Source: Thermanaerovibrio velox DSM 12556 (GTDB lineage: Bacteria; Synergistota; Synergistia; Synergistales; Synergistaceae). Taken from it: a stretch of DNA of 64,000 bases. Below are positions 53,151-55,138 of this stretch, piece after piece (position 1 is the stretch's first letter; every line of letters starts with the position of its first letter). The notes under the pieces are model-generated. The model was not told where the DNA came from, made no database searches, and worked only from the letters and a program-made list of their open reading frames with translations. Position numbers and translations under genes: made by a program. The DNA is taken from contig NZ_CM001377.1 of assembly GCF_000237825.1 (NCBI RefSeq), forward strand, positions 62,001 through 126,000, written 5' to 3'.

Positions 53151-54359
53151 CTAGAGCCTAAGCTCCCTCATGACGGTGTCGAGGTCCTTATCCCCCCGGC
53201 CGGAGAGGTTGACCAGGATCGCTTGGTCTTCGTTGAGGGTTGGGAGGAGCTTTAAGGCGTACGCCACCGCGTGGGAGCTCTCCAGGGCGGGTATTATGCC
53301 CTCGGTCCTGGATAGGGTGAGGAAGGCCTCCAGGGCCTCCCGGTCGGTCACGCTTTCGCAGCGGATCCTTCCCAGGTCCTTCAGGTGTGCCAGCTCGGGT
53401 CCCACGCCAGGGTAGTCCAGCCCGGAGGACACGCTGTGAACCTCCGCGGGGCTGCCGTCATGGTCGGTGAGCACGTAGGTCCTGAAGCCGTGGATCACCG
53501 CCTCCCGGCCTTTGAGCAGCGAGGCGGCGTGTTTATCCGTGTGGAGCCCCAGCCCCGCGGGCTCCACCGCCACGAGCTGCACCGACGGGTCGCCGAGAAA
53601 GCCGCTGAAGAGTCCCATGGCGTTGCTGCCTCCCCCCACGCAGGCTATGGCGTGGCTGGGAAGACAGCCCTCCACCTGGAGGAACTGCTCCCTTGCCTCT
53701 TCTCCTATGATCGACTGGAAGTGCCTCACCATGGTGGGGTATGGATGGGGGCCCACCACGGATCCCAATAGGTAAAACGCCCCGGGGTCCGACACGTAGC
53801 GGTCCAGGGCGGCGTCCACCGCCTCCTTGAGGGTGCCCGCCCCTTGGGAGACGCTCACCACCTGTGCCCCCAATGCCCTCATGCGGGCCACGTTCGGGGC
53901 CTGCTTCTTAACGTCCTGTTCCCCCATGAAGACCGTGCACTGAAGCCCCAAGAGGGCCGCCACGGTGGCGCAAGCGGTGCCGTGCATCCCCGCCCCGGTC
54001 TCGGCTATTATCCTGTCCTTGCCCATCCGCCTGGCCAGAAGCCCCTGACCCAGGGCGTTGTTTATCTTGTGGGCCCCCGTGTGGTTCAGGTCCTCCCGCT
54101 TGAGGTACATCCTGGCCCCCTTGGGGGACAGGCTGGACAGGTTCAAACACCGTGTTAGGGCGGAGGGACGCCCCACGTAGTGCCTTAGCAGCTCCCGGTA
54201 CTCCCTCTCAAACTCCGGATCCCCCAATGCCTCTTGGAACGCCCCTTCCAGCTCGGAAAGCCTCTCCGCCACCGCCGAGTCCACGAAGGCCCCGCCGTAA
54301 CGGCCGAAGTATCCGTCTCCCAAAACCCTCTTGCCCTCCGCCTGGCTCATCTGTCTCAT
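53151..54359 (-). CDS. trpB: Tryptophan synthase beta chain
   Basis: The protein has 402 residues, normal length. YFGRYGGAFVDSAV (TrpB1-type N-terminus), PLP lysine in LNHTGAHKINNALGQ, MGEQDVKKQAPNVARMRALG (in part), PTMVRHFQSIIGEEAREQ and CVGGGSNAMGLF are conserved. TrpB makes tryptophan from serine and indole. No trpA or other trp gene adjoins it. AGGAGGAAGG precedes the ATG. A Trp leader peptide and attenuator hairpins lie upstream, so it is regulated by tryptophan supply. Confidence 0.95.
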   Translation of the reverse strand: MRQMSQAEGKRVLGDGYFGRYGGAFVDSAVAERLSELEGAFQEALGDPEFEREYRELLRHYVGRPSALTRCLNLSSLSPKGARMYLKREDLNHTGAHKINNALGQGLLARRMGKDRIIAETGAGMHGTACATVAALLGLQCTVFMGEQDVKKQAPNVARMRALGAQVVSVSQGAGTLKEAVDAALDRYVSDPGAFYLLGSVVGPHPYPTMVRHFQSIIGEEAREQFLQVEGCLPSHAIACVGGGSNAMGLFSGFLGDPSVQLVAVEPAGLGLHTDKHAASLLKGREAVIHGFRTYVLTDHDGSPAEVHSVSSGLDYPGVGPELAHLKDLGRIRCESVTDREALEAFLTLSRTEGIIPALESSHAVAYALKLLPTLNEDQAILVNLSGRGDKDLDTVMRELRL

Positions 54360-54412
54360 CTTGCCTTCCTCCTCTCAAATGGCACTCACGTGCCGGGTTT
54401 CCGCGAAAGAGA

Positions 54413-54446
54413 GAGGGGCCGCCTGGATATACCAGCGCGGCCCCTC
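54413..54446 (-). other. Second leader hairpin of trpB
   Basis: Minus strand: GAGGGGCCGC pairs perfectly with GCGGCCCCTC (10 bp), with an inner CTGG/CCAG stem, followed by TCTCTTTCG. It may be a second, weak terminator or protect the trpB start region. Confidence 0.5.
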
Positions 54447-54472
54447 CTCGAAATAGCTTTCCCAAGTGGCTC

Positions 54473-54512
54473 AAAAGCGCGAGGGGGACCGCAGGATAGC
54501 CGCGGCCCCCCT
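54473..54512 (-). terminator. trp attenuator (terminator hairpin)
   Basis: Minus strand: AGGGGGGCCGC (54512-54502) pairs with GCGGTCCCCCT (54492-54482), 11 bp with one G-U and a 9-base loop. TTTT follows five bases later. It begins 42 bases after the leader-peptide stop. The Trp-codon segment can pair with the segment just behind it (GGCGGTGGCC with GGCCGCCGTC, two G-U), giving the usual 1:2 hairpin. A clear 2:3 antiterminator is not resolved by eye. Confidence 0.65.
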
Positions 54513-54553
54513 TTAAGGACTTGCTAGAGCAAAGCCCAAGGCGGACGGCGGCC

Positions 54554-54625
54554 TCAAGGCCACCGCCACCAAAGGGTGCTGTCGATATTGAGGAACGGTT
54601 TGAGAGAACTGTGCAATCTGATCAT
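54554..54625 (-). CDS. trpL: trp leader peptide (23 aa, WWRW)
   Basis: ATG 54625 opens a 23-codon frame, MIRLHSSLKPFLNIDSTLWW plus RWP, ending TGA at 54554. Three of the last five codons are TGG. The ATG coincides with the base expected as +1 of the promoter at 54632-54660, so the message would be leaderless, and indeed no ribosome site is present. Hairpins follow before trpB. Ribosome stalling on Trp codons would control attenuation, as known for trp operons of proteobacteria. Too short for ordinary gene calling. Confidence 0.75.
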   Translation of the reverse strand: MIRLHSSLKPFLNIDSTLWWRWP

Positions 54626-54631
54626 GGGGTG

Positions 54632-54660
54632 ATGATATGTGCCCCTTAAGGTCATGTCAA
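54632..54660 (-). promoter_or_regulatory. trpL-trpB promoter
   Basis: Minus strand: -35 TTGACA (54660-54655), exactly 17 bases, -10 TATCAT (54637-54632). The +1 position, seven bases past the -10, is the A of the trpL ATG at 54625. Confidence 0.8.
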
Positions 54661-54664
54661 GGGG

Positions 54665-55138
54665 TCACATCAGCACCTCCTTGTACCACGTGACGAAGGA
54701 CTCCCTGCAGGTCTTGAGGAAGTCCCTTATGCGGTCCCGGGTCACCCCGCCTTCCAGGTCTAGATCAAGCTCAAGGCAGGCTTGCTTCTTCTGGTCCATG
54801 TAGCTCCTGGAGTACCGGCGGTTCATGTTCCAATCGTTTATCCTCGCCATGGTGGCCTTGCTCTCCGCGAAGGCTATGTAGAACTCTATGCTGTTGTCGT
54901 TCGGGGTGAGCACCAGGGCGTTGTAGCCCTCCAGCTTCCATATGATGTCCCCGTCCTTGTCCAGGTCCGCGGAGTACCCGTCCTCCTTTAGGATCTTGAC
55001 CAGCTCCTTAGTGGTTATTCGGTTAACCACGCTGTCCTGGGCGTTGCCCCCTGCCAAGGCTATGTTAGGGGTAAGGACTGTGCCTGCGGAAACCAACAGC
55101 GCCAGGACCAAGATGAGCGGGTAACTGGTCTTTCTCAC
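54665..55138 (-). CDS. Secreted YbjN-domain protein
   Basis: The protein has 157 residues from GTG 55138 with AAGGGGTGAT upstream. The signal peptide (SYPLILVLALLVSAGTVL...ALA) is followed by a YbjN-type alpha/beta domain (LVKILKEDGYSADLDKDGDI, IWKLEGYNALVLTPNDNSIEF in part, INDWNMNRRYSRSYMDQ). YbjN proteins resemble type-III secretion chaperones in fold and have no settled function. The exported form is probably periplasmic. It ends just before the trpL promoter. The upstream 137-base gap has an extended -10 (TGATACAAT) near 55208-55216. Confidence 0.72.
   Translation of the reverse strand: MRKTSYPLILVLALLVSAGTVLTPNIALAGGNAQDSVVNRITTKELVKILKEDGYSADLDKDGDIIWKLEGYNALVLTPNDNSIEFYIAFAESKATMARINDWNMNRRYSRSYMDQKKQACLELDLDLEGGVTRDRIRDFLKTCRESFVTWYKEVLM

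Follow-up and report, generated by a model that had tools for sequence, protein, structure and literature searches.

A putative tryptophan leader-peptide attenuator with a probable leaderless start before the orphan trpB of Thermanaerovibrio velox

The orphan trpB locus and its upstream region

The window, the 64,000-nt stretch of the T. velox genome (a single contig of 1.88 Mb) that was analysed, carries a trpB gene whose neighbours encode a solute-binding protein, a YbjN-family protein and nadC, with nadB and nadA assigned by their sequences. The earlier note had described this trpB as an orphan, and indeed no trpA adjoins it; a complete trpEGDCFBA operon lies elsewhere in the same genome. 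That the orphan copy stands in for a broken operon trpB was considered and rejected, since the operon TrpB is an intact 394-aa frame. The "stop inside" the operon gene is an artefact of an alignment that extends upstream of the gene start.

Between the YbjN-family gene and trpB we found the features collected in Table 1. The promoter is the only promoter-like site in the 1.4 kb searched, where shuffled sequences gave 0.5 +/- 0.6 such sites, and its score of 10.8 on our own scale is, together with that of the congener G002, the highest in the trpB group. It is followed by a short frame which ends in LWWRWP at a TGA codon and in which TGG provides three of the last five codons; no Shine-Dalgarno (SD) sequence was found between the promoter and the leader ATG. 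A short ORF with clustered Trp codons thus stands upstream of a trp gene. The TTGACA-17-TATCAT promoter, the 23-codon frame with its terminal TGG codons and the hairpin containing the Trp codons had all been proposed in the earlier note and were confirmed on the minus strand, and the 1:2, 2:3 and 3:4 states that it had suggested folding can each be formed by the window RNA. Its 11-bp terminator with TTTT survived in part: the stem folds, with a length of 12-13 bp, and the TTTT begins 5 nt past the stem. A second strong hairpin further downstream (T2) had been overlooked.

Table 1. Features of the orphan trpB attenuator region and of the operon attenuator of the same genome
Feature	Position	Strand	Remarks
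YbjN-family gene (PF10722)	54665-55138	-	codirectional, upstream of leader
Promoter of orphan trpB attenuator	54632..54660	-	11/12 consensus matches
-35 TTGACA	54660-54655	-	17-nt spacer to -10
-10 TATCAT	54637-54632	-	ATG 54625 six nt downstream
Leader ORF MIRLHSSLKPFLNIDSTLWWRWP*, 23 codons	54554..54625	-	ATG at predicted +1, no SD
Trp codons TGG TGG CGG TGG (segment 1)	54560..54571	-	putative sensing codons
1:2 hairpin between Trp codons and segment 2	54540..54570	-	fold
2:3 antiterminator, segment 2 GGCCGCCGUCCGCCUU and segment 3 AGGGGGGCCGCGGC	54498..54553	-	fold and cognate preference
3:4 terminator T1, AGGGGGGCCGCGG-CTATC-CTGCGGTCCCCCT	54482..54512	-	fold; TTTT displaced by 5 nt
Second hairpin T2, GAGGAGGGGCCGCGCTGG-TATAT-CCAGGCGGCCCCTCTCTC, then TTTC	54409..54449	-	terminator-like, tandem with T1
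trpB SD AGGAGG	54368..54373	-	
Orphan trpB, 402 aa (PALP family PF00291)	53151..54359	-	ATG 54359; active-site motif ETGAGMHG
trpEGDCFBA operon attenuator (G000:C1), leader MLFLRLQNWWWRAP and stems	within about 379550-379800		

The 99 nt that run from the Trp codons through T1 have a fold of -62 kcal/mol (z = -6.2), which none of 200 shuffles equalled, and the 2:3 pairing reaches -34.1 kcal/mol in the window fold once segments 1 and 4 are left out. Neither T1 nor T2 was flagged by a terminator scan of the window region. The T1 U-score is 1.0 in the window copy versus a family median of 3.9, and T1 is followed there by 4 T in 9 nt versus a family median of 7 T in 9 nt, a median obtained from hairpins that were themselves picked for T content; the U-run behind T2 is likewise short. 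Canonical U-tracts follow T1 in the congeners G001 and G002. An intrinsic terminator with a U-tract before the gene is therefore seen in the family and is weak in the window copy, whose T1, judging from these tracts, is a weaker terminator than the copies in relatives.

Conservation and pairing of the elements in Synergistota

In the first 40 relatives examined, the orphan trpB genes that are ~58-77% identical to that of the window come after short frames with a WW, WWW or WWWW ending, behind which lie a hairpin and then one or two terminators. We built covariance models from the trpB and operon element sets (R1 and R2) and searched them in 188 Synergistota genomes. Of these, 58 had an R1 match and 124 an R2 match, the weak R2 matches necessarily including chance ones. 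The best matches yielded 112 elements whose leader has TGGTGG in frame; this step selects for TGGTGG, so that the in-frame W-runs seen in 112/112 retained elements reflect that choice. The genes behind these elements are orphan trpB, trpE, trpD, trpC and probable Trp transporters, and a Trp leader was present at 14/15 trpE loci examined. Both models keep the terminator stem with two-sided changes, and 104 of the 112 elements have two tandem terminator-like hairpins, hairpins having been chosen by stability and T content. A search of the element against Rfam 15 returned no family at the gathering score, its sub-threshold matches being unrelated families, and the Rfam searches gave no T-box riboswitch match upstream of trpB. 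The matches of a wider trpB protein scan belonged mostly to other phyla and were left out of the analysis.

We then compared the duplex formed by an element's own segments with duplexes formed with the segment of other genera, matched for composition and length. The 2:3 pairing showed a clear cognate preference in the trpB family (p=1.4e-6, 21 genera) and in the operon family (p=9.3e-10, 31 genera), and the 1:2 pairing a weaker one (p=0.022 and 9e-4, respectively), whereas the control pairings 2:5, 1:3 and 2:6 and the reversed partner showed none. These preferences and null controls match the prediction of mutually exclusive antiterminator and terminator pairing, and both 2:3 and 3:4, which exclude one another, are kept by pairing in relatives. 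The alignment of relatives that the earlier note had offered as a check accordingly came out in its favour, since in-frame runs of Trp codons, both pairings (1:2 and 2:3) and the terminator persist in many Synergistota genera.

These observations bear on the simplest alternative, that a TGG-bearing short frame happens to lie in a GC-rich intergenic region beside two ordinary terminators of the upstream gene. The region is indeed GC-rich, the genome holds 28 TGGTGGNGG-N6-TGA sites and TGGTGG-type strings are not rare, but dozens of genera have in-frame Trp runs and antiterminators at this same position ahead of trpB and trpE; coincidence is ruled out by this conservation, and we give it a negligible probability. 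Trp attenuation of the orphan trpB is, on these comparisons, very likely.

The tandem hairpins raised another possibility, a relay in which one signal switches both terminators through pairing of the T1 3' arm with the T2 5' arm. A 12-bp 4:5 duplex can form in the window (-22.0 kcal/mol), and in the first 29 elements partner swaps weakened the pairing, with 0/5000 permutations as good overall and 11/5000 in each family. With 105 elements and matched other-genus partners, however, the cognate 4:5 pairing was no better within families (p=0.39 and 0.16), and the pooled 4:5 value was p=0.02 while the 3:4 and 5:6 controls gave p<1e-5. Promising on the smaller set, coupling of the terminators by 4:5 pairing is unsupported on the larger one with matched controls, and we regard it as very unlikely.

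Several elements depart from the common form. The second hairpin is lost, leaving a single canonical terminator, in L168, L169, L171, L173 and L187 (G154, G011, G155, G008 and G005), which belong to one orphan-trpB clade. Trp attenuators of this kind also precede membrane-transporter-like genes, candidate Trp transporters judging by their sequences, in L249 (G027), L244 (G043), L246 (G044) and L152 (G062). Leaders ending in WRWWP stand before TrpB homologues ~30% identical to that of the window and TrpB2-like in L220 (G164) and L208 (G169); L224 (G019), with TGGCGGTGG, looks similar. In L237 (G182) and L239 (G187) operon-type leaders have TAT TAT TGG at the sensing position, possibly Tyr-Tyr-Trp in place of Trp-Trp-Trp, which might reflect either a changed sensed amino acid or a frame effect. 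Operon leaders of L136 (G028), L139 (G033) and L151 (G006) have no stop after the Trp codons and their frame crosses segment 2; the position of the leader stop is no fixed feature.

The start of the leader

In 20 of the 47 orphan-trpB leaders (~40%), distributed over 11 genera and 4 families, the -10 is followed at a distance of 6-8 nt by an open in-frame ATG; this holds for 0 of the 52 operon leaders, whose start mostly lies at 24-40 nt and usually has an SD. The best-scoring promoter of each element was used, and G037 and G056 were dropped from a raw count of 22 because a stop codon closes their frame; the Fisher p of about 3e-9 for trpB versus operon leaders was computed on 22/47 before these two exclusions and, like the other count tests, takes related genomes as independent. 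One of the 20, G021, rests on a weak promoter. No out-of-frame ATG occurred at 6-8 nt in the trpB group. Promoter architecture and spacing to the leader ATG in both congeners match those of the window, while the leader sequences have diverged (MITLRRSLNLILIDNNSLWWRWP in G002 and MIEHTMNRNGNFNHSSLFWWWRP in G001). On a TrpB tree, in which the rows of G029 and G038 are wrong-frame proteins to be disregarded, we counted ~9 switches between leaderless and SD-led leaders, at least 4 of them on well-supported branches. Leaderless spacing was not enriched among ordinary genes (1,270 candidate starts in 250 genes, 304 kb of genome); it is thus not a genome-wide habit, and we rejected that explanation of the trpB leader. 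In the literature, Synergistia are listed with the full AAAGGAGGUGA SD motif (PMC10783764).

The proposal of a leaderless leader in the earlier note is borne out comparatively by the 20/47 against 0/52 and by the identical spacing in both congeners, and leaderless translation of the trpB leader is likely in this genome. Transcription would begin on the A that opens the leader ATG, or one or two bases from it. A different reading is that the attenuator is real and its leader is not leaderless, its transcripts being started at a promoter further upstream or reaching it by read-through of the YbjN-family gene, with translation beginning at a weak-SD start or by re-initiation. From the end of the codirectional upstream gene it is 33 nt to the end of the -10 and ~40 nt to the leader ATG, and no terminator was found on the minus strand between it and the leader. 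This is set against a near-consensus promoter at the exact spacing to the ATG, against the 20 orphan-trpB leaders that share the spacing despite various upstream neighbours or none, and against the retention of an SD by SD-led relatives where leaderless-type leaders have none, so we consider such a leadered message unlikely. Read-through from the YbjN-family gene could nevertheless carry some message into the attenuator, and such a message would have no leaderless start. In G002, too, a similar frame lies upstream.

Eight genomes have a leaderless trpB leader together with a leadered operon element (G000, G002, G006, G029, G047, G055, G076 and G077), G000 being the present one. Like the trpB element, the operon attenuator of T. 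velox has a Trp leader, 1:2, 2:3 and 3:4 segments and a second hairpin; it differs in having 38 nt from the -10 to the ATG, an AAGGAGG SD and a distinct conserved sequence (GTCYGCCGCCAAG ... GGCCTTGGAGGYGGATCC). That the difference in start mode within one cell is itself selected is a tentative idea, rather unlikely in our estimation. Were it true, the leaderless leader might link the ribosome with RNA polymerase right from the first base, or might depend on another state of the initiation machinery, and the orphan trpB might obtain another Trp threshold or stress response than the operon. The eight genomes amount to a natural experiment, each combining one regulatory logic with both modes of initiation, which lets one ask directly what leaderless initiation changes in transcription-translation coupling.

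Proposed mechanism and relation to known attenuators

Taken together, a ribosome-mediated Trp attenuator of the orphan trpB, with its leader translated from a leaderless 5' end, is the reading we consider likely. When Trp-tRNA is scarce, the ribosome would stall at UGG UGG (CGG) UGG and cover segment 1, so that 2:3 would pair and RNA polymerase would read through to trpB. With plentiful Trp-tRNA the ribosome would reach the stop codon, 3:4 would form and transcription would end at T1, T2 probably serving as a fail-safe terminator a short way downstream. TrpB would then be made when Trp is short and could join indole and serine.

The trpL attenuators of E. coli and Salmonella operate by the same 1:2, 2:3 and 3:4 logic, segment 1 likewise holding the Trp codons. 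They belong to another phylum, have an SD-led leader and one terminator, and are accompanied by TrpR repression. Nearest in its start is the trpLE(G) attenuator (rnTrpL/peTrpL) of Sinorhizobium meliloti, which likewise has a leaderless Trp-codon leader peptide attenuating a trp gene; the trpL RNA starts with AUG, and its translation was shown by Ribo-seq (PMC7298713, PMC10117765). It differs in lying in Alphaproteobacteria, in controlling trpE(G) instead of an orphan trpB and in its 14-aa leader. The earlier note took it that Trp leaders described so far carry an SD, which is thus wrong in general, and of the novelty it claimed the part concerning Synergistota stands: leaderless Trp attenuation is new for this phylum and not in principle. 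Corynebacterium and Streptomyces share with the present element a Trp leader peptide, an antiterminator and a GC-rich terminator (PMC1262725), and differ in being Actinobacteria, in the single terminator described and in that no shared Rfam family was found. In Corynebacterium diphtheriae two trp operons, trpB2A among them, each have an attenuator of their own (PMC1262725). Leader peptides reported as leaderless in Streptomyces lividans include leuL, thrL and metL, with trpL not stated to be one of them (PMC8079986).

For a long time the only descriptions of leader-peptide attenuation came from Proteobacteria and Actinobacteria, with Firmicutes added later (PMC2965389). We found no earlier report of Trp attenuators in Synergistota in the open-access literature, which is weak evidence of absence. 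As far as searched, novelty lies in the lineage, in the tandem terminators and in a mode of initiation that differs by locus, and the Synergistota attenuators, with their conserved tandem terminator-like hairpins, have no Rfam entry. Leader-peptide attenuation is likely to be the general mode of Trp control in this phylum.

The congener G001 keeps the orphan trpB and its attenuator and has no detectable trpE, as do many other relatives, a combination that would fit use of outside indole. A TIGR02617-like protein, a potential tryptophanase and indole source, occurs in the genus far below the curated cut-off, and nothing was concluded from it. The orphan TrpB of the window and all 42 motif-covered orphan TrpB of Synergistota loci (e.g. 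L162, L188 and L215) have ETGAG-M-HG, versus ETGAG-Q-HG in the operon TrpB of the same genome. This loop lies near the substrate carboxylate in TrpB, and the M-for-Q motif may be the signature of a separate clade of stand-alone TrpB whose kinetics or substrate differ.
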